Part shown: in pieces, positions 3,277-29,937 of the stretch
Layout: every line of letters starts with the position of its first letter
Numbering within the stretch: position 1 is the stretch's first letter
Assembly: GCF_019802345.1 (NCBI RefSeq)
Contig: NZ_JAINDZ010000039.1
Coordinates: 1-43,676, forward strand
Source of the DNA: Methylosinus sp. Sm6
GTDB taxonomy: Bacteria > Pseudomonadota > Alphaproteobacteria > Rhizobiales > Beijerinckiaceae
Length of the DNA stretch: 43,676 nt
Direction of reading: 5' to 3'
Notes under the pieces: model-generated
Seen by the model: only the letters and a program-made list of their open reading frames with translations
Told to the model about the DNA's origin: nothing
The model's database searches: none
Position numbers and translations under genes: made by a program

Positions 3277-3288
3277 GCATAGAGTTGC

Positions 3289-9362: not shown

Positions 9363-10001
9363 TAAATCGATCGCAGCTCGATCGCGCTCGCAAATCGATC
9401 ATTCGGACATCGGCCGCTCGATAATGGCTGCCTCGCGGCGACCGTCGAGAGGGGCGCCGCGTCTTCGCCGTGGAGCGAGCGCCTGCGAGCGCCGCGCCAT
9501 CGCTGCCGGAGGCGGCCGCGACGACGGTCGAGTCGCCGGGCGCGCCGCGCCGGATCGGCGAGCGCGCCAAAATCGCGATCTCTAACGCGGCGGCGCGCAT
9601 CGCCGGTCGGCGTCCTTCGGGCGAAATCGGCGCGCGACCGAGCTGCGCCTGCATCGAACGCGACCGTGCCCCGCCGCTCGCTTCGCCGGCAGCGATCGCG
9701 CGAAGCCGCAGACGAGGAAATCGGTCGGCCAAACGGGTAATTTGGTCAGGCTTTCGTGGATGCGCCGCAAACTACGGAACTCGCCGGATAGATGCGCCGC
9801 TGCAGAGCAGGCTATGTGCAGGAGACGCGCTCACGCGGTGTAGTCGGGGACGAGTTCGACTCCCCCCTAGTGCGGTAGCTTTGTCGCCGCCGCGATCCCT
9901 CTGCGGCCGCAGCCATGTGTCTCCGACCGCCGCCGACGCTCGCGCGCGTCACGGGCCAGCCCGCTACCGCACTCCGCGCCGTTTCAGAGGAACATGTTTC
10001 G
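9363..10001. other. Long noncoding stretch before the polysaccharide locus
   Basis: Some 640 bases without a gene I can support. Open frames here have arginine-rich translations with no domain, as expected from shadow frames in GC-rich DNA. It must hold the promoter for the phosphoglycosyl transferase and probably its control sites. A GGGGA/TCCCC inverted repeat surrounds 9846-9865. No clear sigma-70 or sigma-54 promoter stands out by eye. Confidence 0.5.
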
Positions 10002-11564
10002 ATGAACTTGCACGCGTTGGATCTGCGACGAGCCGCGTTGACGCGAGAACAACAGGAGTCGGACCCATTCGATAATTCGGCGTCGCCGGCGACGCCGGCG
10101 CGCCTCGCCTCGGTCGAGCGAGAGGCGCTCGCCGATAGATCGCCGAAAGCGGAACAGGACCGCGTGCTGACAAATGCAGAAGCGCGCTCCTGGATCGTCG
10201 CCTCGGCCGGATTTCTGGCGTTGATCGCCGCCAGCGGCTTCAGCGCGGCGCTCTATGGCCGTCCCGCATTCGGCTCGCCCGACAGCATCTGCGAATTTCT
10301 CGGGGTCGGAATGACTGCGGGATTGCTCGATTGGGGCGCGAGCAATGTGCTCGGCGCCGACAATCCACGCGCCATCTCGAAACTCGAAAAGCGCGTCCGC
10401 CTGGCGCTGTCGTCATGGGCCGCCGCCTGCGCGATGCTGCTGCTGATGATCTTCGTCCTGAAGGTCAGCGACCATTTCTCCAGAGCGACGATGCTGACGT
10501 TCTTCGTGACCGGCCTTCTCGCCGTGACGGCGGTTCGCGGCGTGCTCGCTCCGGCGCTCGTGCGAGCGACGCGGCGCGCCGCCTTGCGACGGCGCGGCGC
10601 GCTCGTCATCGCCGATGCGTGCAATCCGGCATTGCTCGCGGTCGTTCGAGCGCTTCGCGACGTCGGCTATGATTCGCCCATCGCCGTGACGATCGACGTC
10701 TCGCGTTCGCAGGAGCATTGGCCGGAACAGCGCCGCCGCGTGCTCGATCACATCGCCTTCTGTGCGAAGACCATGAAAGCCGGCGAAATCTTTCTCTGCG
10801 GCTCGGGCATTCCAATCGATCGCCTGAAAAGCCTCGAGACCGGTCTCAGCCTCATTCCGCGTTCCTTGTTCTATGTGCCCGACGACGCCGTTTCCCGAGT
10901 TCTCCGAGGCCGGCAGATCAGCGAGCTCGGAGAGCATGTGACCGTCGAAATTCAGCGAGAGCCGCTGTCGCGTTTCGAGCGAGCGGTGAAGCGGATGATC
11001 GATCTCGCCGGCGCGACCGTGCTCTTGATCGCGCTGCTGCCCGTCCTCGCCATCGTCGCGATCGCGATAGGCGTCGATAGTCCTGGACCGATCCTGTTTC
11101 GTCAAACGCGATTGGGACTGGGCGGACGTCCTTTCGACATATTGAAGTTTCGAACCATGCATGTCACCGAAAACGGATCGCATGTTCGGCAAGCGCGACG
11201 AAACGATGCGCGCGTCACCAAGGTCGGCCGCGTGCTGCGACGCACGAGCCTCGACGAGCTGCCTCAGCTGATCAATGTCATCAAGGGCGAGATGTCGCTC
11301 GTCGGCCCACGGCCGCATGCGATCGCGCACGACGAGGAGTTTGCCAAGATCATCGAAAACTACGAAATTCGCCAGCATGTGAAGCCGGGCGTCACGGGAT
11401 GGGCGCAAGTCACGGGTCTGCGTGGAGAGACCCCTTCTCCGGATGTCATGGCGAAGCGAATCGACGCCGATCTCTGGTACGCCGCCAATGCGAGCATCTG
11501 GCTCGATGTGCGGATCATTCTGCGAACCGCCATGATCATATTGACCGAACGCGACGCATATTGA
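10002..11564 (+). CDS. Undecaprenyl-phosphate sugar phosphotransferase (WcaJ/PssA-type)
   Basis: Starts polysaccharide synthesis by moving a sugar-1-phosphate, usually glucose or galactose, from UDP-sugar to undecaprenyl phosphate in the inner membrane. The 520-residue protein has several N-terminal membrane segments (about 65-85, 97-115, 135-155, 163-187), a cytoplasmic nucleotide-fold-like middle, and the C-terminal bacterial sugar transferase domain from about 325. The last holds the re-entrant helix DLAGATVLLIALLPVLAIVAI, SPGPILFRQTRLG, the KFRTM motif at 382-386, RRTSLDELPQLINVIKGEMSLVGPRP and KPGVTGWAQV. I chose the ATG at 10002 because residues before it, to 9915, are unlike the family. 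It heads the polysaccharide locus; the sugar is not predictable from sequence. Confidence 0.92.
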   Translation: MNLHALDLRRAALTREQQESDPFDNSASPATPARLASVEREALADRSPKAEQDRVLTNAEARSWIVASAGFLALIAASGFSAALYGRPAFGSPDSICEFLGVGMTAGLLDWGASNVLGADNPRAISKLEKRVRLALSSWAAACAMLLLMIFVLKVSDHFSRATMLTFFVTGLLAVTAVRGVLAPALVRATRRAALRRRGALVIADACNPALLAVVRALRDVGYDSPIAVTIDVSRSQEHWPEQRRRVLDHIAFCAKTMKAGEIFLCGSGIPIDRLKSLETGLSLIPRSLFYVPDDAVSRVLRGRQISELGEHVTVEIQREPLSRFERAVKRMIDLAGATVLLIALLPVLAIVAIAIGVDSPGPILFRQTRLGLGGRPFDILKFRTMHVTENGSHVRQARRNDARVTKVGRVLRRTSLDELPQLINVIKGEMSLVGPRPHAIAHDEEFAKIIENYEIRQHVKPGVTGWAQVTGLRGETPSPDVMAKRIDADLWYAANASIWLDVRIILRTAMIILTERDAY

Positions 11565-11682
11565 GGTCGGGCCAGACGGGAGCATCCGCGTCGTTCCGAT
11601 GCCGGCGCTCATTTTCGATGTGGCTCTTTCGGAGCCTCTCGCCAGGAGTATCGATCGTATGATTTTCGACGAAGGCTCGCCG

Positions 11683-12411
11683 ATGATGAGGCGGGCGTGG
11701 CGCTCTCTGCTCGCGTTGCTGACGCTGGAGTGCTCGATCCTTCTGAGCGGCTGCTCGACCACAGAGGCGAGCTTCGATCAGGCCGCCACGAACTCGATCG
11801 GATCGTCCGCTTTGCCGGCCGCGGACAGCGTGCAAGCGGGCGCCGATTTCACGAGCGCCGAATATCGTCTCTCCGCGCAGGACATCGTGCAGATCGAGGT
11901 GTTCGGATTTCCGAGCTTGAGTCGGACCGTGCAGATCGACGGCTCCGGCCGCGTGTCATTCCCGCTGATCGGCGCTGTGACGGCCGCCGGGCGCACGACG
12001 AGCGAATTCGAGAGGGAGCTCGCGGCCAGGCTGGGGACGCGATTTCTCCGCTCGCCGCAAGTGACCGTTCTCATCAAGGAGTCGGTCGGGTCTCGCGTCA
12101 CTGTGGAGGGCGCGGTCAGGAGGCCCGGCGTCTATCAGCTGAAGGGGAAGACGAGGCTGGTGCAAGCGCTGGCGTTGGCGGAGGGCATCAATGACGTCGG
12201 CGACTACACCGTTTCATTGATCCGGGTGTCCGGACAGCGGCGCTTCACCGCGAAATATGACGTGTCCGCTATTCGATCCGGAAAGGCCGAAGATCCATTG
12301 GTGTATGGAGGCGACACGATCGTCGTCGAGGAATCCGCGGCGCGCATGGGCGTGCAGGTCTTGAAGAGCACTGTTCCCACGCTCGTGAACGTCGGAGCGC
12401 GACCGTGGTGA
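11683..12411 (+). CDS. Polysaccharide export outer-membrane lipoprotein (Wza-like)
   Basis: Forms the outer-membrane secretion channel for the polysaccharide. The 242-residue protein begins with a lipoprotein signal (RRAWRSLLALLTLECSILLSGC) with the lipobox LLSGC, giving an acylated cysteine. A Poly_export domain follows (AEYRLSAQDIVQIEVFGFPSLSRTVQIDGSGRVSFPLIGAV) and then a SLBB-like segment (SRVTVEGAVRRPGVYQLKGKTRLVQALALAEGI). It is shorter than E. coli Wza (379 residues), as is common in rhizobial homologues. Two starts are possible: 11683, with GAAGG 7 bases upstream, and 11659, with AGGAG 10 bases upstream; I prefer the former. It lies directly before its kinase partner. Confidence 0.9.
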   Translation: MMRRAWRSLLALLTLECSILLSGCSTTEASFDQAATNSIGSSALPAADSVQAGADFTSAEYRLSAQDIVQIEVFGFPSLSRTVQIDGSGRVSFPLIGAVTAAGRTTSEFERELAARLGTRFLRSPQVTVLIKESVGSRVTVEGAVRRPGVYQLKGKTRLVQALALAEGINDVGDYTVSLIRVSGQRRFTAKYDVSAIRSGKAEDPLVYGGDTIVVEESAARMGVQVLKSTVPTLVNVGARPW

Positions 12412-12454
12412 TCGCGTCGATCACGGATCGTCTTGTCGAGAGAAGGCTCATCGG

Positions 12455-14746
12455 ATGAATCGAGAGCGGAGAATGGGCGGGGATGTTCCCGCCGTGATCC
12501 TGGACGAGACGTCCCGCGAGCGAAACCTGGCGGCGGCGGGTGCGCCGCTTTCGGGCTTTCGCGACGACGGCTATGGGGGAGCTCCCGACGACATCGAAGC
12601 GCTCCAATTCCTGAAGCTATACGACATCATTCTGAAATACAAAAAGCGGATCGCGATGATCTGCGCCGCGTTCTCGATCGTCGGCTTCGTGGTCACGTTT
12701 CTCATGCCGAGAATCTACACGGCGACGACGACGATACAGATCGACCGAGAAGCAGCGAAGGTGTTGCGTCTTCATGATGCGATCGTCGAGAATTCGTCCG
12801 ATCCGCAATTCTATGAAACGCAATATGAGCTGTTGAGGAGCAGAGCGCTCGCCGAGCGAGTCGTGTCGTCCCTGTCGCTCGCCGACAGGAGAGGATTCGG
12901 GGAGGGCGAGAGCTGGTCGCTTTCGAGCGCGATCAGAAAGCTCTTCTCGCAAAAGCGCGAAAGCGCGCCGGATGTCGAGCGCCTGCGGGAGCGCGCCGTC
13001 GAGTTGGTGATGAACGGATTGACGGTGCAGCCGGTGGCGAAATCCCGCATCGTGAAAGTGGGGTTCAGCTCTCGGGATCCCGCCATCGCGCAAGAGGTGA
13101 GCTCGGCGATCGGACAGAACTTCGTGGCGATGACATTGGATCGTCGCTATGGAGCCTCCGCCTATGCGCGCCAGTTTCTCGAGGACAAGCTTCAGCAGGT
13201 GAAGGTCAAGCTCGAGGACTCCGAGAAGCTGGTCGTCGACTACGCGCAGAGGGAGGGAATCGTCAATGTCGACGACAAGATCTCGACCTCGGGCGCAAAT
13301 CTGAAGACGCTCAACGACTCGCTCGCCGTCTCGACGGCCGAGCGGATCAAGAGCGAGCGGCTATGGGCCCAGGCGCAGGCAGGCAATGGCGTCGGGCTTC
13401 CGCAAGTGCTCGAGGATCGCAACATTCAGTCCGCGCGCGATCGGCGAGCGCAACTGATGGCCGAGTTCCAGGACAAGCTCAGCGTCATGAAGCCGGACTT
13501 TCCGGAGATGCGCCAGCTGCGCGGGCAGATCGCCGAATATGATCGCCAGATCAGCGCGCAGGTTTCGCTGATAAAGCAGGCCATAAAGGCTCGCTATGAG
13601 GCGGCACGAGACCAGGAGATCTCTTTCCGCGAGCAGATCGAGAGGTTGAAGGCGGACGTTCTCGATCTTCGTGGCAGAAGCATTCAATATAACATTTTGC
13701 AACGAGAGCTCGACACCAACAGGTCTCTCTACGACGGTCTCCTGCAGCAATACAAGGAGGTCGGCATCACCGGCGCGATCGGAACCAGCAATGTGTCGAT
13801 CATCGACAGGGCCGAGCTGCCGAAGGGCCCGTCCAGCCCGAAGCTGCTGTTCAATCTCGGCCTGGCGCTGGCGCTCGGCGTGCTGGCGTCGGCCGGCGCC
13901 ATCATCGTCGGCGAAATCCGCGACGATACGCTGAAAGTTCCGGAAGACGTCGAGGAGACGCTGGGGCTGGCCGTGCTCGGAGTCATCCCAGTGGGGGAAA
14001 AGGACGGCGAGAGCCGCGCGATGGCGCGCATGGTCATCGAGACTCCGCTTTCCGCCGCCGCCGAAGCGTTTCGCAGCCTCAGCACGTCACTCCAGTTCAC
14101 GACGGAGACGGGGCTTCCGAGAACATTGCTCGTCACCAGCGCGCAGGCCGCCGAGGGAAAATCCACGACATCCGTTTGCGTGGCGAGCAACTTCGCGCAG
14201 CTCGGCATGCGTGTTCTGTTGATCGACAGCGATCTGCGCAATCCTTCCCTGCACAAGATATTTGGTCTCGATAACGACGCCGGCCTGTCCAACGTTCTGA
14301 TCGGAACCGCGCAGGCCGAGGAGGTCGCGATCGAGACCTGCCTGTCTGGAGCGACCGTGCTCCTGTCGGGGCCGGCGCCGCCGTATCCCGCCGAGCTGCT
14401 GGCGGGGGCGGGCATGGGATTGCTTCTGGCGAGGACGCGGGAGAAATTCGACATCGTCATCGTCGACGGTCCGCCGGTCGTCGGTCTGGCGGACGCGCCG
14501 CTGATCGGCCATCTGGTGGACGGAACAATTCTCGTCGTCAGCTCGCGCGAGACGCGAAAGCGAGTGGTTCGGGCCGCGCTGAAGCGATTGTATTTCTCGC
14601 GGACCCGGCTGCTCGGCGCAGTGATGAACAGATTTGACGCCAAGAAAGCCGGCCATTCCTACGGCTACGGCTTCGGATACGCCTACGACGCCTATGGCTT
14701 GCACGATTATCGATATGGAAGGCTGACGGACGATGCTCGAAAATGA
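12455..14746 (+). CDS. Polysaccharide co-polymerase fused to bacterial tyrosine kinase (Wzc-like)
   Basis: Controls polymer length and drives export together with the Wza-like channel. The 763-residue inner-membrane protein has an N-terminal Wzz domain with a first membrane helix near residues 66-88 (IAMICAAFSIVGFVVTFLMP), a long periplasmic coiled-coil region and a second helix near 465-487 (LLFNLGLALALGVLASAGAIIV). A C-terminal BY-kinase domain follows. Its Walker A is at about 559-568 (SAQAAEGKST), the A' motif at 588-593 (LLIDSD) and Walker B at about 668-674 (IVIVDGP). The extreme C-terminus, after AKKAGHS, carries seven tyrosines in about 20 residues, the usual autophosphorylation cluster. 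AAGG lies 8 bases before the ATG. Its stop overlaps the next start in ATGA. No matching Wzb phosphatase is nearby. Confidence 0.95.
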   Translation: MNRERRMGGDVPAVILDETSRERNLAAAGAPLSGFRDDGYGGAPDDIEALQFLKLYDIILKYKKRIAMICAAFSIVGFVVTFLMPRIYTATTTIQIDREAAKVLRLHDAIVENSSDPQFYETQYELLRSRALAERVVSSLSLADRRGFGEGESWSLSSAIRKLFSQKRESAPDVERLRERAVELVMNGLTVQPVAKSRIVKVGFSSRDPAIAQEVSSAIGQNFVAMTLDRRYGASAYARQFLEDKLQQVKVKLEDSEKLVVDYAQREGIVNVDDKISTSGANLKTLNDSLAVSTAERIKSERLWAQAQAGNGVGLPQVLEDRNIQSARDRRAQLMAEFQDKLSVMKPDFPEMRQLRGQIAEYDRQISAQVSLIKQAIKARYEAARDQEISFREQIERLKADVLDLRGRSIQYNILQRELDTNRSLYDGLLQQYKEVGITGAIGTSNVSIIDRAELPKGPSSPKLLFNLGLALALGVLASAGAIIVGEIRDDTLKVPEDVEETLGLAVLGVIPVGEKDGESRAMARMVIETPLSAAAEAFRSLSTSLQFTTETGLPRTLLVTSAQAAEGKSTTSVCVASNFAQLGMRVLLIDSDLRNPSLHKIFGLDNDAGLSNVLIGTAQAEEVAIETCLSGATVLLSGPAPPYPAELLAGAGMGLLLARTREKFDIVIVDGPPVVGLADAPLIGHLVDGTILVVSSRETRKRVVRAALKRLYFSRTRLLGAVMNRFDAKKAGHSYGYGFGYAYDAYGLHDYRYGRLTDDARK

Positions 14747-15030
14747 GCGGGAGCCTTTCGTCTCTGCGAGGATTCGACGTGCGGCGGGATAGGGCGCTCA
14801 TGCAGGCGTTCGAGCTCGCGGCAGCTGCGAGGCTCGCCGCAGCGGTGCGCAGGCTTCCCTTGCCGGACGGCGTTCCTGCCGGATCGTTCACATCGCGCCT
14901 AGGCGTCGGCCCGACGGCGACCTTCCGTTCGTTCGATACGATGGATCGCGGCCGCTTCGCGCCGTCTCATTGGGACGATTGCGAGCAGACGCAAGTCGAC
15001 TCGCTGATTGCGGGACGTCCGAAAGGATGA
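14743..15030 (+). CDS. Small ORF translationally coupled on both sides
   Basis: A 95-residue protein that I do not recognise. Its ATG overlaps the kinase stop in ATGA, and its TGA stop at 15028-15030 overlaps the start codons of the next gene. Third codon positions are mostly G or C, as in neighbouring genes. The N-terminal half is helical and alanine-rich (RRDRALMQAFELAAAARLAAAVRRL). The second half is polar (FDTMDRGRFAPSHWDDCEQTQVDSLI). There is no signal peptide or membrane segment, so it is probably cytoplasmic. The position between the export kinase and a membrane-anchored unknown suggests a role in assembly or control of the export complex, but that is inference only. Confidence 0.55.
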   Translation: MSGSLSSLRGFDVRRDRALMQAFELAAAARLAAAVRRLPLPDGVPAGSFTSRLGVGPTATFRSFDTMDRGRFAPSHWDDCEQTQVDSLIAGRPKG

Positions 15031-16274
15031 TGCGGAATCGGCTCGCGGGCGCCGATTCGAGCGTGAGACTCGGCGTGATTGCGGTTCTGCTGGCGCTGGG
15101 CTGGCGGATGGTGCGCCACGCGGCCGCGGATTTCCTTTTCGACGATCCGCCAGCTGCTCTCTCTTGGGTCGCGGACGATCCACGCGCGCTCTCGACCCTC
15201 GTGCGAATGGAGCTCGGTGAGGCCGGAGAAAGCGGCGATCCGATCGAGAGCGCGGCGCGGCTCCTCTCGGTCGATCCTCTCGCCTTCGAGGGGCTCTCCT
15301 TGTACGGCGTGGCGCTGTCGCGCGCCGGCGACACGGCGCGCGCGGACGACATCTTCCGAACAGCGGCGGAGCATGCGCCGCTCGATCTCATCGCACATGG
15401 CGAATTGTTCCTGCGATCGGCCGAGGCCCGCGATCATCGGACCGCCATCCGCGAGCTGGACATTCTGCTGCGAGGCCGCCCGCATCGCGCGTCCCTCTAC
15501 CAATCCGCGAATGTGTTGATCCGCACGAATGTCGAGGCCGCGGCGGAGCTCGGACGTTCACTGGCCACGCAACCTCCCTGGCGCGTCCGAATGTTCGTGC
15601 ATTTGTGCGAGACGCTCGAGAAAACAGACGTCCTGATAGCGCTGTTCCAGCAATTGAGCGCATCGGGCGCGCCGCCATCCCTAGAGGAAAGGCGCGCGTT
15701 TCTCGATCGGCTCGTTCGGGATGGACGAGTGGACGAGGCCTATTTCTTCTGGCTCGCGCAAGTGCCGCAGAGCAGGTGGAAGGAGCTCGGCTATCTGTAC
15801 AACGGCCGCTTCCGGCACGCGGTCTCGAATCTCGCGTTCGATTGGCGCTTCCTTCCGGCTCGCGGCGCCAAGATCGACGTTGTTCCGGACGGAAACGCGA
15901 GCGCGCTCAGAGTGCGGTTTTTCGGAACGCGCGTGCTTTTCGCGCATGTGATGCATCTCTTGGCGCTTCCGGCGGGAACCTACGCCTTTTCCGGATCTGC
16001 GAAATTGGATCATGTCGAGAGCGAGCGGGGCCTTCGCTGGAGGCTCTATTGTCACCAGACGAAAGCGACGCTGGGCGCGACCGATCTGCTCGTCGGAACG
16101 ACGCCATGGACGCCATTTCGTTCGACATTCGTGGTCGCCCCCACCGACTGCCCGGCGCAATGGCTCGTGCTCGAAATCCCGGCGCGCGCCGTTCTCGAAA
16201 CGCAGGTCAGCGGCGAAGCGCGCTACAAGGCTCTGCAGATCGAGCGCCTCGACAGTGAAGCCGATCGGCTATAG
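15027..16274 (+). CDS. Membrane-anchored helical-repeat protein of unknown function
   Basis: A 415-residue protein. A single membrane segment lies near the N-terminus (about 14-30, VRLGVIAVLLALGW), so the rest should be periplasmic. The middle has TPR-like helical hairpins (DPLAFEGLSLYGVALSRAGDTARADDIFRTAAEHAPLD and the following RTAIRELDILLRG...). From about residue 260 the sequence turns into a beta-rich domain of unfamiliar type (NGRFRHAVSNLAFDWRFLP...ALRVRFFGTR...AGTYAFSGSAKLDHV). Its pattern is reminiscent of a carbohydrate-binding jelly roll, which is a guess. The start overlaps the preceding small ORF; ATG at 15027 or 15030 is possible and the frame opens earlier at 14970. The position suggests a scaffold for polymer export. 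Confidence 0.7.
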   Translation: MMRNRLAGADSSVRLGVIAVLLALGWRMVRHAAADFLFDDPPAALSWVADDPRALSTLVRMELGEAGESGDPIESAARLLSVDPLAFEGLSLYGVALSRAGDTARADDIFRTAAEHAPLDLIAHGELFLRSAEARDHRTAIRELDILLRGRPHRASLYQSANVLIRTNVEAAAELGRSLATQPPWRVRMFVHLCETLEKTDVLIALFQQLSASGAPPSLEERRAFLDRLVRDGRVDEAYFFWLAQVPQSRWKELGYLYNGRFRHAVSNLAFDWRFLPARGAKIDVVPDGNASALRVRFFGTRVLFAHVMHLLALPAGTYAFSGSAKLDHVESERGLRWRLYCHQTKATLGATDLLVGTTPWTPFRSTFVVAPTDCPAQWLVLEIPARAVLETQVSGEARYKALQIERLDSEADRL

Positions 16275-16331: not shown

Positions 16332-16850
16332 ATGAGAAAGACAGTCGCGGCGATCGTCGTCTTGAACGCTCTGGCGCTCGCATCCGCGTCCGCCGAAGAG
16401 CGCGACCAGCGCGTCGAATCGAAGGGGCCCGGCAAGGTCTGCGCCGCGGGTCCAGCGTGGTTGAAAGCGGTGAAGGGCGCCGTGCTGGTCTCCCGCGGCG
16501 GGTCGTTCACGCAAGCGTCCGAAGGCATGCGGCTGGCGGCTGGCGACCACGTCATCGCCCGGGACGGATTCGCAAATGTCGTGATGGGCGGCGCGATCGT
16601 GGCGCGCGTGAGCGACGGCGTGATGATCACGATCGGCGAGAAGGACGGCGCTGTCTGCATTGCTCGCGTATCCGCGAGCCCGTCGGCTGTCGGTCAGGCG
16701 GAGCAGGGTGGGGGCCTCGACGCGCAGGGGCTGCTCCTGGCCGGCGGCGCTCTCGGCGCCCTGGGCGTGGGATTGGGCGTCGGCATTTCCAGCGTGAACA
16801 GCAGCAACAATAATCCCAACGATAATTTGCCGCTGACTCTCAGTCCGTGA
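16332..16850 (+). CDS. Secreted FecR-like domain protein
   Basis: A 172-residue protein with a signal peptide (MRKTVAAIVVLNALALASASA, cleavage before EERD). Residues about 45-110 look like a FecR-type beta domain: KAVKGAVLVSRGGSFTQASEGMRLAAGDHVIARDGFANVVMGGAIVARV, the usual series of short strands with a G-D turn. Two cysteines (near 37 and 113) could form a disulfide. A glycine-rich hydrophobic stretch (LLLAGGALGALGVGLGVGI) near 133-152 may anchor it, and the tail is Asn/Ser-rich. FecR-like domains are often found near export or surface-polymer genes, where they may bind the cell wall or sense. The stop overlaps the next start (GTGA). The role is inferred. Confidence 0.75.
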   Translation: MRKTVAAIVVLNALALASASAEERDQRVESKGPGKVCAAGPAWLKAVKGAVLVSRGGSFTQASEGMRLAAGDHVIARDGFANVVMGGAIVARVSDGVMITIGEKDGAVCIARVSASPSAVGQAEQGGGLDAQGLLLAGGALGALGVGLGVGISSVNSSNNNPNDNLPLTLSP

Positions 16851-18316
16851 TCGAGAGGGTCGGCGTGAGACGGATCGAAATTGCCAGCGGCCTCGCTATC
16901 GCCGCGTCGCTTCTGCTGGGGGGAGCGACCCAAAAAGGCGCGCTATCGGACGACAGTGTTCAGCTCCTTTGTCTCCCGCTGCTCGGCTGCATCATTCTCG
17001 AATATCGATCGTGTGGAGGCTCTTTCGCCTGGGTCCTTTTCGGCTCGGCGATCCTGGCGGCGGTTCCGATCATTCAAACGATCCCGCTTCCTCCTGCGGT
17101 TTGGACAGCGCTGCCGGGGCACGCGACGATCGCCGCGACATATCACAGCGCGGGGCTCGACGTTCCATGGTCGAGCATCTCCGTCAGCCGCTGGGCGACG
17201 ACACGGTCCGCATTCGCGCTCATACCGCCTGTCACGATCTTTCTCGGCGTGCGGATGTGTGGGCGCCGCGAGCGTCGACGTCTCGCCTTGCTCATTCTGG
17301 CGTTCGGCGTCGCGACCGTCGTCCTCGAGATCATGCAGCTGGTACAGGGTCAAGACAGCGCCTTGCGTTTCTATGCGCTGACGTTTCGCGATGTCGGGGT
17401 CGGGTTTTTCGCCAATCGGAATCACACGGCGGCGTTTCTCTACGCGACGATCCCGATCGCGGCGTTCGCCTCGGATCGGTTTATTCGACACGGGAACCAT
17501 GGCGTCGCGCTGTTGCTCGGCTATTTGCTGACGGCCTGGCTCGGACTCATGATGACAGCGTCACGTTCCGCGCTGCTGATGGGCTTTATCGCGACAGTTG
17601 GGGCCGCCGCTCTGCTGATGCGGGGGCGAATGGGCCTGTTGAAGCAGCTGCGGGTCGCCGACTATCTCATCGCCGGCGGCTTCCTGGCCGGCGCCGGCGG
17701 TCTTGCGACCTCGTTCGGATTGTCCGGCATTCTCGCTCGTCTCAGCGAGGAGAAGATTGCGGCCGATGCGCGCTGGTCGGTCGCGAAAGCGTCGTTTTCG
17801 GCCGCCGAGGCGTTTTTCCCGTTCGGTTCCGGTCTCGGCGCTTTCGATCGGGTGTATCCCGTGTTCGAGGGCGCCGCGGGCATCGTCCCGGCGTTCGTCA
17901 ATCATGCGCATAATGATGTGCTCGAGCTCGTGGTCGAGCTCGGTCTCGTCGGCCTCGTCGTCATCATCGGCGCGATCGTCTTTGCGGGGCTCTCGGCCTG
18001 GCGTTGCCTTCGCGAAGGCGACGCGACCGTCGCGACCGAACGATCGGCTGCGCTCCTCGTCGCGATATTGCTGTTCGTTCACTCGCTCTGGGATTATCCG
18101 TTGCGCACATCGGGAGTCGCCGCGGTATTTGCATTCTGTGGCGCCGTCTTGTGCGCCATTCCCAGAACCGAGCGTCGCGAAGCTGGCCGCGGCGGCGCGG
18201 ACAAGCGATCCGAACAGAGCCGCCGCCGAGCTTTCACCGATGCTTCTGGCGGCGTTCACGCGCCGTCGCCGGCTCTGCGATGGCGCATGAGCGCGCCGCG
18301 CCGAAGCGGGTCGTGA
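16847..18316 (+). CDS. O-antigen polymerase/ligase-like membrane protein (Wzy_C family), first copy
   Basis: A 489-residue inner-membrane protein with about ten membrane helices. Family motifs are GFFANRNHTAAFL at about 186-198 and the periplasmic loop FVNHAHNDVLELVVELGLVG at about 350-369, the H-x-x-N-D...E...G-L-x-G pattern of the O-antigen ligase family. Such proteins either polymerise lipid-linked repeat units or transfer the finished polymer to an acceptor. The GTG at 16847 overlaps the FecR-like stop. A GTG at 16865 with GAGAGGG five bases upstream is a good alternative. The C-terminal 45 residues after CAIPRTERRE are basic and disordered. A second member of the family lies at 28513, so the division of labour is open. 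Confidence 0.88.
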   Translation: MIERVGVRRIEIASGLAIAASLLLGGATQKGALSDDSVQLLCLPLLGCIILEYRSCGGSFAWVLFGSAILAAVPIIQTIPLPPAVWTALPGHATIAATYHSAGLDVPWSSISVSRWATTRSAFALIPPVTIFLGVRMCGRRERRRLALLILAFGVATVVLEIMQLVQGQDSALRFYALTFRDVGVGFFANRNHTAAFLYATIPIAAFASDRFIRHGNHGVALLLGYLLTAWLGLMMTASRSALLMGFIATVGAAALLMRGRMGLLKQLRVADYLIAGGFLAGAGGLATSFGLSGILARLSEEKIAADARWSVAKASFSAAEAFFPFGSGLGAFDRVYPVFEGAAGIVPAFVNHAHNDVLELVVELGLVGLVVIIGAIVFAGLSAWRCLREGDATVATERSAALLVAILLFVHSLWDYPLRTSGVAAVFAFCGAVLCAIPRTERREAGRGGADKRSEQSRRRAFTDASGGVHAPSPALRWRMSAPRRSGS

Positions 18317-18320
18317 CATT

Positions 18321-18379
18321 GCGAGCCTGAAGGCTCGCGGTCCAAGCGCGGCCCATGGACCGCGAGCCTTCAGGCTCGC
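18321..18379. repeat. Long perfect inverted repeat, family B
   Basis: A perfect 24-bp stem (18321-18344 with 18356-18379) closes an 11-base loop, five bases after the polymerase stop. The arms begin GCGAGCCTGAAGGCTCGCGG. The right arm matches 122-145 in 23 of 24 positions, and the hairpin at 3158-3191 is a diverged relative. No T-run follows, so it is an extragenic palindromic repeat that may also act as a terminator or RNA-stabilising element between two transcripts. Confidence 0.85.
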
Positions 18380-18560: not shown

Positions 18561-20834
18561 TTGCGGAAAGCGAGGCCTCTTTTGGACGATAGGTCGCGAA
18601 GCGCGGATCGGCTCACGCAAAAGATCCTCGTTCACGCCATTAATTTCGCGCCGGAGCTCATCGGGTGCGCGAAATGCACGACCGAGCTCGCGCAATATCT
18701 CGCGGCGCGGGGACATGAAGTCGAAGTCGTCACCGCGCCGCCGCATTATCCAGGATGGATCGTGCGTGCTCCCTATCGCGGCTCGGCCTATCGGCAAGAG
18801 ACGCTCGGCTCCATACGTCTGATCCGCTGCCCGATGGCCACGAAAGCGGGAGCGGCTGGTGTGTGGCGCCTGCTGGCGCCGCTCAGTTTCGCGGTGGCCG
18901 CCGCTCCGATCGTCGCCTGGCGCATTCTGCGGCGCCGGCCGGATGTCGTGCTGTGCGTGGAGCCGACCCTGTTCTCCGCGCCCGCGGCCCTGCTCGCCGC
19001 CAAGCTCGTCGGAGCGCGCAGCGTGCTGCATGTGCAGGACCTCGAAGTCGACGCCGCTTTCGAGCTCGGGCGGTTGCGCGGCGCCTCGGTCCGGAAGGCG
19101 GCGAATTTCCTCGAACGGCGTCTTCTCGGCGGGTTCGATTGCATCGTGACGATTTCAGACAAAATGAGGCGGGCGCTTTCCGCCAAAGGGCTCGAGCCTG
19201 CGAAGGTGGTCGTTCTCCGGAACTGGGTCGACCTCGACGCCATCCGGCCGCAACCGAAAAGCGCGTCGAATGCGTTTCGCCTGCAATTGGGTTTTGCGGA
19301 GGATGATTTCGTCGTCCTCTATGCAGGCCATATCGGCGCCAAGCAGGCGCTCGATGTGGTGTTCGAGGCGGCGCGCCGTCTCGCCGACCAACGCTCCATT
19401 CGCTTCGTTGTCGCCGGCGAAGGCCCTGCTCTCGAGGGGCTCCTGCAGACATACCGCGACGCCGCCAATGTCGCCTTCCTGCCGCTGCAGTCGGCAGTGA
19501 GAGTGAACGAATTGCTGGCGATGGCGGATCTTCACGTGCTGCCGCAGCATGTCGGCGCGGCGGATCTCGTCCTGCCGTCGAAGCTCGGCGGCATGCTCGC
19601 GAGCGGTCGGCCGATCGCCGCCACGGCGAAGCCAGGAACGGAAATCGCCGATCTTCTCGCGGATATCGCGCTGCTGTCGGCGCCGGGCGACGACGAGGCG
19701 CTGGCCACATCGATCCTGACGGCGAGATCCCGCGACTCGTCCGACAAAGTCGCGCGCGGGCTGGCCTTGGCCGAATCCTTCAGCGCCGCGCGGCTGCTGC
19801 CGGCTTTCGAGCAGCTGCTGGTGGAGCGCGAGGGCGTCCGTCGCCGCGAGGCGGGGTCGGCAGGCGCAGGCTCGCGATCGCGAGCGTTCGTGTCGAAGCG
19901 CCCCGGATATTCGATTGGCTTTGGCCTTCTCGCGGTCCTGGTCGCCGCGGAACTCACGGCGAGGGCGCTGGGCTTTGTCGATGTCCCGGTCTACCGACGC
20001 GAGCCGGGGACGGAATATCTCCCCGAAGCCGGGCAGTCCGGCCGCTTCATGAACGCCAACGACTGGTATTTCAACAACGAGAGCATGCCGCTCGCGCAGG
20101 ATTGGAAGCCAGGCGGCGCGATCGATGCGCTGCTGATCGGCAATTCGATCGTCATGGGCGGAAATCCTTACAAGCAGCCCGAAAAGCTGGTCGCGCAGAT
20201 CCAGAGTCGACTCGGCGCGCGATCGACGGTGTGGCCGATCGCCGTGGGCGGCTGGAATCAGCCCAATGAGGTCGCCTATCTCGATCGGCGCCCAGAGATC
20301 GTCCGCGCGGCGGGCTATGTCGCCTGGGAATATATGGCGGGAGGGCTCTCGTCCGCTTCGGCCTGGCGAGGCGAATATGTCTTTCCGACGCAAAGGCCGG
20401 TCTCGGCCGCCTGGTATGCGCTGCGTCGCTATGCAATTCCGTGGCTCGTTCCGGGAACGCTCGCCAGCGAATTGCCGCCGCGGGGCAACGCGGAGAATGC
20501 CCATGCGGCCGATTTCGATCGCATGCTGCATGATCTCGCGGCGAGCACGCGCAGCGATCGTCCCGGCTTCATTTGGCTGTACCCGTCTCAGGAACAGCTG
20601 CGCATGGCGAGGCGCGGCGAAGAATGGCTGCCCGAGCGCGCGCTGATCGAGACCATGGCGAGACGCAACGGGCTGAGGATCGTCGACGTCGCTGCAAAGA
20701 TCGAATGGAACGAGAGCCATTATCGCGACGGCTTGCATCCGAATGTGGAGGGAAACCGAATGCTCGGCTCCATTCTGGCGGCGGAGATCGCAGCGGACGT
20801 CGCCGATCGCATGATTTCGGCGGTGGGACAGTGA
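18561..20834 (+). CDS. Glycosyltransferase family 4 (WcaI-like) fused to an SGNH-hydrolase-like domain
   Basis: A 757-residue two-part protein. Residues about 20-420 form a GT4 glycosyltransferase like WcaI: KILVHAINFAPELIG, ARGHEVEVVTAPPHYPGW, VVLRNWVDL, VVLYAGHIGAKQALD, FVVAGEGPALEGLL, and the donor-site segment LPSKLGGMLASGRPIAATA. A hydrophobic helix follows (about 450-472, IGFGLLAVLVAAELTARALGF). The rest resembles an SGNH hydrolase: block I as LLIGNSIVMGG near 524-534 with GNS in place of GDS, and block V as DGLHPNVEGNRM with the D-x-x-H pair at about 723-726. The second part may attach or remove acyl groups. WcaI proteins are usually about 410 residues, so the fusion is unusual. The start is uncertain: TTG at 18561 or TTG at 18582 behind GCGAGG; no ATG fits. 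Confidence 0.85.
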   Translation: MRKARPLLDDRSRSADRLTQKILVHAINFAPELIGCAKCTTELAQYLAARGHEVEVVTAPPHYPGWIVRAPYRGSAYRQETLGSIRLIRCPMATKAGAAGVWRLLAPLSFAVAAAPIVAWRILRRRPDVVLCVEPTLFSAPAALLAAKLVGARSVLHVQDLEVDAAFELGRLRGASVRKAANFLERRLLGGFDCIVTISDKMRRALSAKGLEPAKVVVLRNWVDLDAIRPQPKSASNAFRLQLGFAEDDFVVLYAGHIGAKQALDVVFEAARRLADQRSIRFVVAGEGPALEGLLQTYRDAANVAFLPLQSAVRVNELLAMADLHVLPQHVGAADLVLPSKLGGMLASGRPIAATAKPGTEIADLLADIALLSAPGDDEALATSILTARSRDSSDKVARGLALAESFSAARLLPAFEQLLVEREGVRRREAGSAGAGSRSRAFVSKRPGYSIGFGLLAVLVAAELTARALGFVDVPVYRREPGTEYLPEAGQSGRFMNANDWYFNNESMPLAQDWKPGGAIDALLIGNSIVMGGNPYKQPEKLVAQIQSRLGARSTVWPIAVGGWNQPNEVAYLDRRPEIVRAAGYVAWEYMAGGLSSASAWRGEYVFPTQRPVSAAWYALRRYAIPWLVPGTLASELPPRGNAENAHAADFDRMLHDLAASTRSDRPGFIWLYPSQEQLRMARRGEEWLPERALIETMARRNGLRIVDVAAKIEWNESHYRDGLHPNVEGNRMLGSILAAEIAADVADRMISAVGQ

Positions 20835-20974
20835 CGAGCGCCGACATCTGGTCCGGCGCGACTTCGTTCGGCGAGCGGCGGTCGCGGCGCCGCGTTGCGG
20901 CGGCTTCCCCGACGACGGACGCCGCCGCTCCGAGCGCTCGCGCAGCCGTCGTCGGGGGGATGCTTCGCACGTGA
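20831..20974 (+). CDS. Possible small coupled ORF
   Basis: A 47-residue frame that starts with GTG overlapping the stop of the glycosyltransferase-SGNH gene (GTGA). It ends with a TGA overlapping the GTG start of the flippase (again GTGA). It exactly fills the 136-base gap. The product (MTSADIWSGATSFGERRSRR...) is short, basic and alanine-rich, with no recognised domain. It may serve only to couple translation across the gap, or be chance. Confidence 0.28.
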   Translation: MTSADIWSGATSFGERRSRRRVAAASPTTDAAAPSARAAVVGGMLRT

Positions 20975-22329
20975 CGATCAAGTCTTCGAGCGCGCTTTTT
21001 TCCAGCCTCGCGGCCAGCCAGGCATTTCGCGCGGTCGCGTCCAACAGCGCCTGGCTGCTGTTCGACCGCTTCGCGCGCATGGGGCTGGCTCTCGCCGTCG
21101 GAGTGTGGACGGCCCGCTATCTGGGACCGGAGCGATATGGCGAGCTCTATTTCGTTCTTGCCTTTCTCGCGCTGTTTCAGAGCGCCGCGCCTTTGGGGCT
21201 CGACGCCGTCGTCGTCCGCGATCTGGCGGTGGATCGAACCGAAGCCGGCGCAATTCTCGGCGCCACTTTCGCGGTTCGCCTCGCCGCCGGCGTCGCCTGC
21301 TTCGGGCTCGCGGTCGGCGGCCTGGCGCTGTGGCGCGGCCCCGGCAGCCGCGAGGTCATGCTCTGCGCCCTCGCCGCCGGAGGACTGATATTTCAAGCCT
21401 TCGACACCGTGGATTTATGGTTCCAGAGTCGGAGCCAGAGCCGGCGGACCATTGTTCCGAAGCTCGTCGCCTATCTCTGCGCGAGCGCATTCAAGGTGAT
21501 GGCGATCATTCAGGCGGCCCCGCTGTTAGTTTTCGCGCTGGTCCAGACGATGGACGGTCTCATCGCCGCTGTCGGCCTCTGTGTGGCCTACCGCCTTTTT
21601 CCCGCCGGGCAGCCGTTGAAGGCGACCTTGGAGCGCGCCGAGAAGCAGGTCCGCGAATCCTTTCCCTATATGCTCGGCGCCGTCGCCATCGTCGTCTATA
21701 TGAGGATAGACCAGCTGATGGTCGTCCATCTCCTCGGCTATGAGGCGTCGGGCGTCTATGCGGCGGTGGTCCCTCTATCGACGGTCTGGACGGTGATCCC
21801 GACGACGCTCGCCGTGAGCCTCGCCCCCTTCATCGCCCGGAAAAAAAACGAGAGCGAGGCCGCCTATTATGACTCGCTCACGCTGGTCTTCCGTGTGTTC
21901 GGGAGCTTTGGCCTCTTGTCGTCGATCGTCACGGCGGCCGCGGCGCCTTTGATCGTCGGCCTCTTGTTCGGCGAGCAATACAAAGGCGCGGACCAGCTGC
22001 TCGCCATTCACGCTTTCGGCAATTTCTTCGTCTTCCAGGGAGTTGCGCAAGGGCTCTGGGTGGTGAACGAAAGAGAGGGGCGCCTCGCCGTCTGGCGCGT
22101 GCTGATCGGGGCCTGTGTTTCCATTTGCGCCAATGTCGTCCTCCTGCCGATCATGGGCCTGCGAGGAGCGGCCGTGTCCTACATATTGTCGCAAGCTTGT
22201 GCTGCGATCTTTCTCAACCTCGTGTTCGCGCCGAACATTTTCATCATGCAATTTGGATTTTCACGACCGCGGCGACGCTTGTCCTTCGCGCCGAAGCGTG
22301 AGGCCGTCATGACACGAGAGGTCTCATGA
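20971..22329 (+). CDS. Polysaccharide flippase (Wzx-like)
   Basis: Moves the undecaprenyl-linked repeat unit across the inner membrane for polymerisation. The 452-residue protein has about 12-14 membrane helices and the usual openings of the family: NSAWLLFDRFARMGLALAVGVWTARYLGPERYGELYFVLAFLALF, then PLGLDAVVVRDLAVDR. The central RESFPYMLGAVAIVVYMRIDQLMVVHLLGYEASGVYAAVVPL is typical of polysaccharide_synt proteins. It starts with GTG at 20971, behind GGGGGG about ten bases upstream. Its stop overlaps the next start (ATGA), so it is coupled to the FkbM methyltransferase. It is the only flippase in the locus. Confidence 0.92.
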   Translation: MTIKSSSALFSSLAASQAFRAVASNSAWLLFDRFARMGLALAVGVWTARYLGPERYGELYFVLAFLALFQSAAPLGLDAVVVRDLAVDRTEAGAILGATFAVRLAAGVACFGLAVGGLALWRGPGSREVMLCALAAGGLIFQAFDTVDLWFQSRSQSRRTIVPKLVAYLCASAFKVMAIIQAAPLLVFALVQTMDGLIAAVGLCVAYRLFPAGQPLKATLERAEKQVRESFPYMLGAVAIVVYMRIDQLMVVHLLGYEASGVYAAVVPLSTVWTVIPTTLAVSLAPFIARKKNESEAAYYDSLTLVFRVFGSFGLLSSIVTAAAAPLIVGLLFGEQYKGADQLLAIHAFGNFFVFQGVAQGLWVVNEREGRLAVWRVLIGACVSICANVVLLPIMGLRGAAVSYILSQACAAIFLNLVFAPNIFIMQFGFSRPRRRLSFAPKREAVMTREVS

Positions 22330-24329: not shown

Positions 24330-25229
24330 ATGTCAGCGCGCATCGATTGGAGAGTAAGGCCGACGGGCTTCTTGTGGGAGACTGTCGTGAACAAGTTGCG
24401 CTATCCCAGCGATATTTCGCGGCGACAAGCCGAGTTTGGCGATGAGCGTGAGCGCCTCTTTTCCATAAGACGTCAGATCGCTGAAAGCATGCCGGACAAT
24501 CCGTGCGTGTTCGGTTACAAGGTATATTCTCAGGTCGACGAGGACGGGATCATTCAGAACATTCTCGGCCGAATTCCAAATCACAGCCGTACGTTCATCG
24601 AGATCGGTTGTGGAACTGGCGTCGAAAACAACACGCATTTTCTGGCTCTTCTCGGCTATGATGGGTGTTGGATCGACGGTTCTGCCGCAAACATCGCGCA
24701 AATCAAAAGACAGTTGGGACGGCTTCAATTCGACAGTCTCAATATAATAAATGCGTTCGTGAATAGAGATAATATAGGGGCTTTGATCGATGATTGCATG
24801 AAATTCATCGGCTCCGAGTCGCTCGGATTTCTCTCGTTGGACATCGATGGAAATGATCTCTATGTTCTCGGCGAGATCATGAAAATATCAAATCCAGAGG
24901 TTGTCTGCGTCGAGTATAATGCTAAATTTCCGCCGCCTGTCGCTATCTCGATCGCCTACAGCGAGGGTGTCCAATGGGCTGGCGATGATTATCACGGGGC
25001 GTCGTTGAGCGCATTTTGCGAGCTGCTTTCCGACTACGTTCTTGTTTGCTGCAACGCTTCAGGGGCCAATGCATTTTTTGTCAGAAAAGACAAGGCCTCT
25101 GGGTTTTCTGGGTATTCGATCTCGGATATTTACCAACCTGCGCGATTCGAGTTGATACGAGTTGCTGCGGGGCATCCGCCGACACTGAAGTTCTTACGCG
25201 ATTATCTCAATGCGCGTGCGCGTCATTGA
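24330..25229 (+). CDS. FkbM-like methyltransferase 2
   Basis: A 299-residue SAM-binding protein of the FkbM-like group. It has KVYSQVDEDGIIQNILGRIP before motif I FIEIGCGTGVENNTHFLALLGYDGCWIDGS (from about residue 89), and later LGFLSLDIDGNDLYVLGEIM and VVCVEYNAKFPPP, where the family's acidic strand and late signature lie. It probably modifies a sugar. GC content is clearly below that of the window, with codons such as AAT, ATA and TAT common, which suggests transfer. GAGAG lies 7 bases before the ATG. The next gene begins 39 bases after the stop. Confidence 0.8.
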   Translation: MSARIDWRVRPTGFLWETVVNKLRYPSDISRRQAEFGDERERLFSIRRQIAESMPDNPCVFGYKVYSQVDEDGIIQNILGRIPNHSRTFIEIGCGTGVENNTHFLALLGYDGCWIDGSAANIAQIKRQLGRLQFDSLNIINAFVNRDNIGALIDDCMKFIGSESLGFLSLDIDGNDLYVLGEIMKISNPEVVCVEYNAKFPPPVAISIAYSEGVQWAGDDYHGASLSAFCELLSDYVLVCCNASGANAFFVRKDKASGFSGYSISDIYQPARFELIRVAAGHPPTLKFLRDYLNARARH

Positions 25230-27406: not shown

Positions 27407-28507
27407 ATGAGAGTCCATATCGACACGCCCGCATATTTCATTCGCCCGCGAACGAACACGGATTGGAGATATATGCGGGAGCTACGCCATATCTCCGAAT
27501 ATGAGAGCGTCGATTTTGTATATCCGCTCGATCCGTTCGACGTGCTCGGAGCAAATATCGGCTTCATTTCCAGCAAGCTCGGTCGGCTGCTGAAAGGGGG
27601 AGCCGCTCCCTTGCAAGGCGCGCCGCCGCGGCGCAGGGTGCGTGTCGGCCGTGATGTGGACGTCATCTATTCTCATCGCGCCGAGCTGCCGACGCCGCTT
27701 CGGGCGACCCCCTTCGTCTGGTTCCATTCCGTTGCCGATCCGGCGATGATGAAAGCCAATGGCGCCGGCGAGAAAGAAATCGAGGCCGACTATCAAAGGC
27801 AGGCCCATGGCTATCGCTCGGCGACAAAGGTGCAAATGACGTCGGACGCCGAGGTCGCCCGCCATCGCGAGAAATTCCCCGAGCTCGCCGATAAATTTGT
27901 ACGGGCGCCATGGTTTCGTCCGGGTCTTTCCGCGGCGTCGCTCGAATATGTTCGCGCAAAGCACGCCGATGATGGTCGGTTGCGGCTCGCTTTCGTCGGC
28001 CGGCAGGCGCGCCGCAAGGGCTTGGACATTGTTCTCGACGCTTTGAGAATGATGAGCGACGTCGAGCGCGAGGCAATGCGCTTCGACGTCGTCACGACCT
28101 TCGGCGACGGTCCGATCGATTGTTCGGCGAACATGGATCTGCGTGTTCATCGAGAGATCGACGATCGATCTCTCGACGACATTCTGAACAAGACGCATGT
28201 CTATGTGATGCCGTGCCGCTTCGAGACCTTCGGCCTCGTCTTCGTCGAAGCCATGTCCCACGGCTGCGCGGTGATCGCGCCGAACTGGGAAGTGCAGAGA
28301 GAAATCTTCGATAACGGGCGCGCCGGCGTCAATGTGGCGACGACGCCGGAGGCGGTTTGCGCCGCGCTGAGGTCTTTGCGCGGCGCTCGCGATCGGCTCA
28401 TGCTGGCGGAGGCCGCAATCGAGCGGTTCGAGACGAGATACGGTCCCGCCGCCGTCGCGCGCGCCTACCGCTCATTGTTCGAGCAGGCCGCAGACTCTGC
28501 GAGGTGA
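27407..28507 (+). CDS. Glycosyltransferase family 4 (GT-B)
   Basis: A 366-residue GT4 protein. The C-terminal donor domain shows LRLAFVGRQARRKGLDIVLDAL, DVVTTFGDGPID, and the E-x7-E site CRFETFGLVFVEAMSHGCAVIAPNWEVQREIFDNGRAGV. The N-terminal acceptor half is less conserved (MRVHIDTPAYFIRPRTNTDWRYMREL). The 85-base gap before it contains a 21-codon reading frame from 27345 whose TGA overlaps this start, preceded by GAGGAGGAA. This may be a coupling leader, or chance. The next start follows after five bases. Confidence 0.88.
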   Translation: MRVHIDTPAYFIRPRTNTDWRYMRELRHISEYESVDFVYPLDPFDVLGANIGFISSKLGRLLKGGAAPLQGAPPRRRVRVGRDVDVIYSHRAELPTPLRATPFVWFHSVADPAMMKANGAGEKEIEADYQRQAHGYRSATKVQMTSDAEVARHREKFPELADKFVRAPWFRPGLSAASLEYVRAKHADDGRLRLAFVGRQARRKGLDIVLDALRMMSDVEREAMRFDVVTTFGDGPIDCSANMDLRVHREIDDRSLDDILNKTHVYVMPCRFETFGLVFVEAMSHGCAVIAPNWEVQREIFDNGRAGVNVATTPEAVCAALRSLRGARDRLMLAEAAIERFETRYGPAAVARAYRSLFEQAADSAR

Positions 28508-28512
28508 TCGGC

Positions 28513-29937
28513 ATGTCCCGCGTGGATTTGTTCATCTTTTTCATCGGGGCGTCGAGCCGCATCAGTGTCAAGCTGATCGGAGACTTGTACATCTGTGAGA
28601 TCATATTGGCGGTCGTGGTCGCGGCCGGATGGCGGCGCATAGGCGGCATGTTTCGGAACCGGATGCTCAAATGGGCCTTCATTCTCGCCGGCTTGTGGCT
28701 GCTCGGCCAAATCCTCACAGATGTGTATAGGAACACGCCATTCGAGGATTGGTCTCGCGGTTGGGCGAAGATCATCTTTTTCATGATCGACCTCATGGGG
28801 CTGGCGCTGTCGACACGATTCAGGATGCGATCGGCGGTGCTGTTGTCATTGGGACTCGGCGTCGCCTTTCTATTGCAGTCGATCCTCTTTCCAAATCAGG
28901 CGCAGGCCGACGGCGATTTCGCGGACGGAATGTGGAAGTTCGGCGTGGGAGCGTTCTTCGGCGCCGCTGCGGCGGCGCTATGCGTGAGCGATCTGCTCTA
29001 TCGCATGATCGGCATGGCTGCGGAATATCTCCCCTTGTTGATTGCCGGAGTCGTCAATCTGGCTATGAACAGCAGGAGCGCTTTTGGAATTGCCGTAGCG
29101 GCGGCGGCTGCCGGCGCGGTCACGCAATTCGTCGCGCGGCGGCCAGCGCTCGGCCGACGGATCACATTGCCGCGCTTTGTGATTCTGTTGGCCTTCGCCG
29201 CTCTTTCGGGAAAGGGCCTCGTGGGGATTTACGAATATGCGGCCGTCAATCATCTGCTCGGCGAAGCCGCCCTCGAGAAATATCAGCGGCAGACGTCCGG
29301 CAGCCTCGGTCTGTTGCAGGCGGGACGGGTGGAATCGCTGGCATCGCTCGAAGCGATAGGAGACTCGCCCGTCATCGGGCACGGGTCGTGGGCAAAAGAC
29401 GAAAAATATGTGAGATCACTGTATATCGCTTTGGAAGACGCCGGCAATGCGAATTACGACGACATCTACCGCGTCGATGACTTCACCATACCGACGCATT
29501 CTCACATTCTCGGGTCGTGGGTGGACGCCGGAATTTTCGGCGGCGTGTTCTGGACCTATTGTCTGGCGTTGATATTTGCTGCGGCATATGTCGCGTTCAA
29601 AGGCGCGGCCACGGGCAAATCGCGGTCCACCAAATACTCGACATTCGTCTATTACAATCTGCTCGGTTTCGCCTGGGCGATTCCGTTCTCTCCTTTCGCG
29701 AACTCGTCGCGCGTATCCGACGCGGCCGTGCTGATCATGATCGCGGCGACCATCTCCTTGTATTCCGGCGCTGACGCCGCGCGAGCCGCGGCGCAGCCAT
29801 CTACGCGAAAGATTTCGAACATGCGCCTGGCGCGACGCTTCGCCTATGCGCCGAGAGCGCCGAAATGCAGCCGTCGCGCAGGTCTTCGGCCATCGACAGG
29901 CGCGCAGGCACCAGACAAATCCGCATCCCGGTCATGA
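28513..29937 (+). CDS. O-antigen polymerase-like membrane protein, second copy
   Basis: A 474-residue inner-membrane protein with about ten helices. A central periplasmic loop (about 265-345) has GSLGLLQAGRVESLASLEAIGDSPVIGHGSW and then DFTIPTHSHILGSWVDAGIFGGVFW. This fits the H-x-H...D/E-x-G-x-x-G pattern of the O-antigen ligase/polymerase family. It lies among the glycosyltransferases, so it is the better candidate for the repeat-unit polymerase than the one at 16847. The start at 28513 is chosen because GAGGTG ends six bases upstream; the SD overlaps the stop of the previous gene. The C-terminus after RAAAQPS is basic and disordered. Confidence 0.82.
   Translation: MSRVDLFIFFIGASSRISVKLIGDLYICEIILAVVVAAGWRRIGGMFRNRMLKWAFILAGLWLLGQILTDVYRNTPFEDWSRGWAKIIFFMIDLMGLALSTRFRMRSAVLLSLGLGVAFLLQSILFPNQAQADGDFADGMWKFGVGAFFGAAAAALCVSDLLYRMIGMAAEYLPLLIAGVVNLAMNSRSAFGIAVAAAAAGAVTQFVARRPALGRRITLPRFVILLAFAALSGKGLVGIYEYAAVNHLLGEAALEKYQRQTSGSLGLLQAGRVESLASLEAIGDSPVIGHGSWAKDEKYVRSLYIALEDAGNANYDDIYRVDDFTIPTHSHILGSWVDAGIFGGVFWTYCLALIFAAAYVAFKGAATGKSRSTKYSTFVYYNLLGFAWAIPFSPFANSSRVSDAAVLIMIAATISLYSGADAARAAAQPSTRKISNMRLARRFAYAPRAPKCSRRAGLRPSTGAQAPDKSASRS

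Follow-up and report, generated by a model that had tools for sequence, protein, structure and literature searches.

The genome of Methylosinus sp. Sm6 contains a gene in which a glycosyltransferase and an SGNH-hydrolase-like domain occupy one reading frame. In the window, by which we mean the whole 43,676-nucleotide stretch analysed, a single uninterrupted frame on the forward strand (positions 18561-20834; TTG start, TGA stop) encodes 757 residues, comprising a WcaI-family GT4 domain, a predicted membrane helix, and a domain with a predicted SGNH fold. Our best explanation, to which we assign a probability of about 0.55, is a lineage-specific fusion within a Wzx/Wzy-type cluster that combines a cytoplasmic glycosyltransferase with a periplasmic, acyl-modifying SGNH domain; the topology, activity, and coupling of the halves are predictions.

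If made as one chain, the protein would combine assembly inside the cell with modification outside; these two steps usually fall to different proteins on opposite sides of the flippase. A so far uncharacterised SGNH subfamily would also become linked to one particular glycosyltransferase, which would point to its substrate. Fusions of AT3 and SGNH domains are well described (PMC9558356); in the present protein the partner is a glycosyltransferase. A literature search covering titles and the starts of abstracts, with most subscription papers outside its reach, found no description of a glycosyltransferase-SGNH fusion.

The fused reading frame

The sequence-only reading had described one 757-residue frame joining a glycosyltransferase to an SGNH-like domain, and we found both the open frame and the two domains. 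The fused gene is present once in its own genome. Similarity to the glycosyltransferase frames of two genomes of the same genus (G005 and G009) continues up to a KAR segment beside the TTG codon, which makes this start plausible. The linker between the domains (residues 419-447; 19815-19901, forward strand) is Arg-rich and stop-free in every forward frame.

A sequencing error or frameshift that divides the frame into two genes, against which the sequence-only reading had cautioned, is opposed, as far as indels are concerned, by the data at the junction, which come from a single assembly; a stop codon lost to a substitution error keeps some probability. Since none of the three forward frames contains a stop over 19741-20000, no single indel there can hide a glycosyltransferase stop, and a frameshift concealed at the junction was rejected for this interval. 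Coding-bias scores, computed per frame in 120-bp steps along the ORF, were highest in the ORF frame among the three forward frames in each step from residue 21 onward. In the step that spans the junction (residues 421-460), the ORF frame scored 0.23, the other forward frames -0.07 and -0.28, and the best reverse frame 0.14; in the last step, one reverse frame was marginally above the ORF frame (0.09 vs 0.05). As an observation, the fused frame is confirmed.

A GTG codon at residue 444 (19890-19892, forward strand) coincides with the aligned start of stand-alone SGNH relatives and may be a relic or an internal start codon. The idea that the linker is the remnant of an intergenic element, based on a 16-bp palindrome at 19870-19885, was dropped because the palindrome is uninformative; four of the six other palindromes of at least 16 bp in the window also fall within called ORFs.

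The glycosyltransferase half

Residues 21-418 (18621-19814, forward strand) form a WcaI-family GT4 domain, as the sequence-only reading had proposed. The NF007640 profile was matched at positions 2-402 of 411, scoring 424.8 bits (cut-off 276; E 3.4e-127), and the Pfam GT4 matches (Glyco_trans_4_4 and Glycos_transf_1) cover residues 35-387. The cut-off of the WcaI equivalog for the colanic acid glycosyltransferase (TIGR04007) was missed by far (256 vs 800.45 bits), and the sugar transferred may therefore differ from the one used by colanic acid WcaI. The protein resembles the WcaI family (NF007640/PRK10307) over its N-terminal 420 residues, but has an additional helix and a 290-residue domain. 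The expectation that WcaI relatives end at about 410 residues agrees with the same-genus orthologs, which stop shortly past the glycosyltransferase domain.

The SGNH half: fold and active site

The Lipase_GDSL_2 score of the C-terminal half was below the Pfam gathering cut-off (24.8 vs 32.9 bits); seven of eight scanned relatives matched this family, all under the cut-off, and the eighth gave no match. Because Pfam alone would not settle the claim, our assignment of residues 470-757 (19968-20831, forward strand) to the SGNH fold rests on a structure model and its PDB matches, together with family alignments. The model of this half, built from nine sequences, had a mean pLDDT of 83.7 and a pTM of 0.82; a model of the whole protein that used no alignment was too poor for use (mean pLDDT 36.8).

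A Foldseek search of the PDB returned 22 matches at E <= 0.001, including EstL5 (E 2.3e-5), TesA (5.9e-5, with many entries), Est24 (1.3e-4), two chains of the crocagin biosynthetic protein CgnD, other GDSL-type esterases, and a designed GDSL-like scaffold. Est24 is a carbohydrate acetylesterase of Sinorhizobium. TM-scores by target length were 0.50-0.70 for EstL5, TesA, and Est24; those by query length were modest, at 0.34-0.48 over the 22 matches, with large rmsd values of 5.6-13.9 A, so the core agrees and the periphery differs. A sequence search of the PDB gave only weak matches, the best being a GDSL family lipase (E 0.0043). The predicted structure thus has the fold of the SGNH hydrolase superfamily, in agreement with the SGNH-like second half that had been proposed from the letters. 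One relative from the GDS clade (L056) has a sub-threshold AlgX match (23.3 vs 26.5 bits).

The Block I serine and the Block V Asp-x-x-His of the superfamily are present as S529, D723, and H726. Block I reads GNS (residues 527-529; 20139-20147), with the predicted nucleophile Ser529 conserved in 32 of 32 aligned rows, and Block V reads DGLH (residues 723-726; 20727-20738), both on the forward strand. The GNS and D-x-x-H blocks had been recognised beforehand; the serine had been placed at about residue 528, and it stands at position 529. Ser529, Asp723, and His726 are conserved among the relatives, except that L039 has Glu for Asp. A Block II-like GGW lies at residues 563-565 (20247-20255, forward strand), where the aligned Gly positions differ between rows.

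At the Block III position, WEYM (residues 589-592; 20325-20336, forward strand), no Asn was found within WEYMAGGL (589-596), an absence that the sequence-only reading had not foreseen. With the Block III column chosen by eye, column 592 holds Asn in 8 of 18 GDS rows and in none of the 14 GNS rows, and column 594 in one GDS row and again in no GNS row; L039 has an Asn at 593. A replacement of the Block III Asn by Glu590 was considered and dropped, since a later alignment set the Asn column at Met592; the claim is that there is no Asn there. According to PMC9487903, SASA enzymes without the Block III Asn rely on a Gln next to the nucleophile, and BcPatB1 relies on an Arg. By analogy, Asn528 beside Ser529 could serve the oxyanion hole. 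As described there, the SASA/CE6 esterases (NanS) resemble the present domain in two ways: the Block III Asn is missing, and the residue that immediately precedes the catalytic Ser is an amide, Gln in their case and Asn here. The likeness is one of analogy.

The membrane helix and predicted topology

The sequence-only reading had noted a hydrophobic helix between the domains near residues 450-472, and the structure model places one at residues 448-469 (19902-19967, forward strand). Hydropathy peaks at 1.80 over residues 452-470, while two stretches within the glycosyltransferase reach 1.74-1.78. Four Arg or Lys residues occur among the 15 residues that precede the hydrophobic core. Glu, Arg, and Gly directly after the helix are invariant in 11 aligned rows; in another alignment, one row has Gln for Arg.

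A hydrophobic stretch near the N-terminus is the usual site of a signal anchor, and each of eight stand-alone SGNH relatives has such a stretch there, as judged by eye. Because the helix of the fused protein matches this N-terminal stretch and is preceded by Arg and Lys, the protein is likely a single-pass N-in/C-out protein with the glycosyltransferase in the cytoplasm and the SGNH domain in the periplasm. This is the layout that had been proposed beforehand.

Relatives of the SGNH half

Residues 444-757 align over their full length with proteins that stand alone elsewhere and have their own N-terminal helix, and identity to any relative is at most 42%. Genome contigs were scanned with a three-row alignment on stretches carrying two peptide patterns, a design that relatives lacking the patterns would escape; 48 pattern-matching stretches yielded seven loci with eight stand-alone proteins of 305-335 aa. 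In a tree of 32 rows, the window falls in a 14-row GNS branch (support 98/98), with L040, L041, and L039 as the nearest rows. Repeated covariation of Blocks I and III was rejected as a reading of their joint change, since the GNS rows all fall on one side of this single branch and represent one event. The stand-alone proteins of the GNS clade (L039-L043 and genus g41) share with the C-terminal half the full length, the anchor helix, GNS, GxW..NE, and D/ExxH, but have no glycosyltransferase fusion in any case seen.

With the window's own genome counted, SGNH matches were found in 3 of 120 relatives and in 11 of 397 genomes of the family, including a split one. At class level, 5 of 385 genomes matched, and among these only G439 and the own genome did so over most of the model; at phylum level there were 6 among 398, including three partial matches. 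With the own genome excluded, there were matches in 5 of 300 genomes of the order of G839 (E <= 1e-8) and in 7 of 15 of genus g41, the latter being the same seven as in the family search. No plasmid matched the SGNH half; with the whole protein as query, 86 plasmid records matched, none of them covering more than 80% of it, and the best 20 of the 86 lie within the glycosyltransferase half.

Viral contigs gave three SGNH loci from 24 stretches. These IMG/VR loci (L109, L110, and L111) encode stand-alone GDS-clade relatives; the L110 protein is identical to a copy in genome G075, and a resolvase/recombinase gene lies near the relative in L109. Tandem SGNH gene pairs occur in Rubrivivax (L042:5873-7904) and in one g41 genome (L076:49-2223, the same as L057), and the SGNH gene of L060 (G603:C179) is split across two frames.

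Occurrence and origin of the fusion

Four of the nine other genomes of the genus (G004, G005, G006, and G009) encode a glycosyltransferase 67-75% identical to that of the window, which stops soon after the glycosyltransferase domain; the remaining five have glycosyltransferases of only about 30% identity. The SGNH domain was found in none of the nine. A search for the same fusion, which had been suggested as a check, detected it in no genome besides this one, and its partners are separate elsewhere. No second fusion was found in the genome, contig, and viral searches, of which the contig collections may omit the records closest to the window, such as a sister strain. Among the whole-genome matches listed outside the window, no open frame exceeded 459 aa between stops, and those of the genome and viral loci were 280-416 aa; such frames are too short for an SGNH domain plus a 400-aa glycosyltransferase. 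Since same-genus genomes have the glycosyltransferase without the SGNH domain, the fusion, known from one genome, is most simply explained as derived in this lineage.

Genomic context

Judged by its gene content, the window carries a Wzx/Wzy-type exopolysaccharide cluster. Genes for an initiating sugar transferase, a Wza-like exporter, and a Wzc-like co-polymerase (Bac_transf, Poly_export, and Wzz/GNVR/ParA-type ATPase) lie at 9915-14746, and the fused gene is flanked by genes for a Wzy/O-antigen-ligase-like protein (16847-18316; Wzy_C, E 2.2e-13) and a Wzx-like flippase (20971-22329; Polysacc_synt, E 4.3e-17), all on the forward strand. The cluster also encodes an FkbM methyltransferase, other methyltransferases, and glycosyltransferases. 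This contig gave no AT3 or MBOAT match; 16 AT3 and two MBOAT places exist elsewhere in the genome. An attempt to name an AT3 partner among them was abandoned, since the best matches of the L039, L042, and L043 AT3 proteins were only 29.6-32.3% identical. The host is taken to be a methanotroph on the basis of a particulate methane monooxygenase/ammonia monooxygenase subunit (PF02461, E 3.4e-108) encoded in its genome.

Separate genes for the two halves occur together in several loci. In Rhodoferax lacus (L039), a glycosyltransferase 43% identical to that of the window, an SGNH gene, and an AT3 gene lie within 8.3 kb, in the order glycosyltransferase (3261-4538), another GT4, a beta-helix protein, SGNH (7962-8879), GT2, a hexapeptide protein, and AT3 on the other strand; this species offers both genes separately for study. 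In a bog gammaproteobacterium (L040), the SGNH gene is 4 kb from a glycosyltransferase gene, also with 43% identity, and Wza- and Wzc-like genes are present. In Rubrivivax (L042) and a member of the Burkholderiales (L043), the SGNH gene begins 87 bp after the end of a GT4 gene and is abutted by an AT3 gene on the other strand. Three of five GNS-clade genome-contig loci thus have an AT3 gene near the SGNH gene, or two independent cases, as L042 and L043 are near relatives and were counted once. For L040 and L041, BLAST with three AT3 queries gave no relative, and a Pfam scan covered part of the ORFs.

In G591 the two genes lie on the same strand, 8.4 kb apart; in G839, whose SGNH protein is from a distant branch, they are 9.9 kb apart. 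In three g41 genomes (G627, G538, and G650), 0.35-1.1 Mb separate the SGNH gene and a gene like the window glycosyltransferase. In G628 and G1062 the two are on different contigs. The g41 SGNH neighbours that were scanned, a minority, encode a GyrI-like protein and DAP epimerase (L072) and a sulfate permease and periplasmic binding protein (L074), which are not polysaccharide genes.

Proposed mechanism and alternative explanations

In the mechanism that we propose, the WcaI-family GT4 domain would add a sugar to a lipid-linked repeat unit on the cytoplasmic side. The chain would then cross the inner membrane once, through what was formerly the N-terminal anchor of a second protein, and a periplasmic SGNH domain would meet the glycan only after flipping, when it would most likely transfer an acyl group to the same glycan or remove one. 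The predicted chemistry would use Ser529-His726-Asp723 with a non-canonical oxyanion hole. If so, sugar addition and acylation or deacylation might be coupled on the same repeat unit, as the sequence-only reading had suggested. As no AT3 or MBOAT match is on the contig, a donor would have to act in trans, unless the domain is a hydrolase. We lean towards acyl transfer, with the carrier supplied in trans, perhaps by one of the AT3 genes elsewhere in the genome, because AT3 genes are nearby in relatives; plain deacylation is the alternative. The probability given to the overall explanation is the same with two independent AT3 cases as with three, since it rests mainly on fold, context, and topology. 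The most specific version, in which one inner-membrane-spanning protein glycosylates the repeat unit inside and acylates or deacylates it outside with an oxyanion hole rebuilt around the Asn beside the nucleophile, is tentative, and the odds are clearly against its holding in full. In OafA, OafB, and OatA the SGNH domain likewise lies behind a membrane helix outside the cytoplasm, according to PMC9558356, but their partner is an AT3 domain and not a glycosyltransferase. The fused protein gave no PF01757 match and is thus not placed among the AT3-SGNH acyltransferases.

An appreciable minority chance goes to the explanation that two proteins are actually made, either because a point error of the assembly removed a stop codon or because the GTG at 19890 serves as a second start that yields the SGNH domain separately. 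The stand-alone relatives start at the helix, a GTG is present at the expected start, and the same-genus glycosyltransferases stop in the corresponding stretch; moreover, the searches made revealed no other fusion, and this one rests on one genome in a single assembly. However, a single indel is no explanation where all forward frames are open, coding bias runs on through the junction, and inspection by eye found no convincing ribosome-binding site before the GTG.

We consider it unlikely that the fusion is real and the SGNH half, no longer an esterase or transferase, serves as a membrane anchor for the glycosyltransferase or as a glycan binder. Its Ser, Asp, and His are kept despite the low identity to any relative, and the absence of the Block III Asn, which could be taken for loss of function along with the contig's lack of an AT3 or MBOAT match, is common to all 14 GNS rows; SASA and BcPatB1 function without this Asn, according to PMC9487903. 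A neutral fusion, in which the halves act on unrelated substrates and their physical link is functionless, seems highly improbable to us: the halves are separate in other genomes, in three of them by 0.35-1.1 Mb, and the fusion occurs in one genome only, but the separate genes share one polysaccharide cluster in L039 and L040.

Additional features of the window

The window encodes two multi-helix Wzy/ligase-like proteins, at 16847-18316 (Wzy_C, 50.7 bits) and at 28357-29937 (29.2 bits, under the cut-off of 31.7). Between the Wzc-like and Wzy-like genes, ORFs 14970-16274 and 16332-16850 gave no Pfam match at E 0.001 and contain one and three hydrophobic segments, respectively. The product of 24330-25229, also without a Pfam match, is 41.5% identical to that of L034:3044-3919 in a same-genus glycosyltransferase locus. 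Upstream of the fusion gene (18321-18379) lies a palindromic element, GCGAGCCTGAAGGCTCGC, with a partner; near copies are found elsewhere in the window, also at 128 and 31139.
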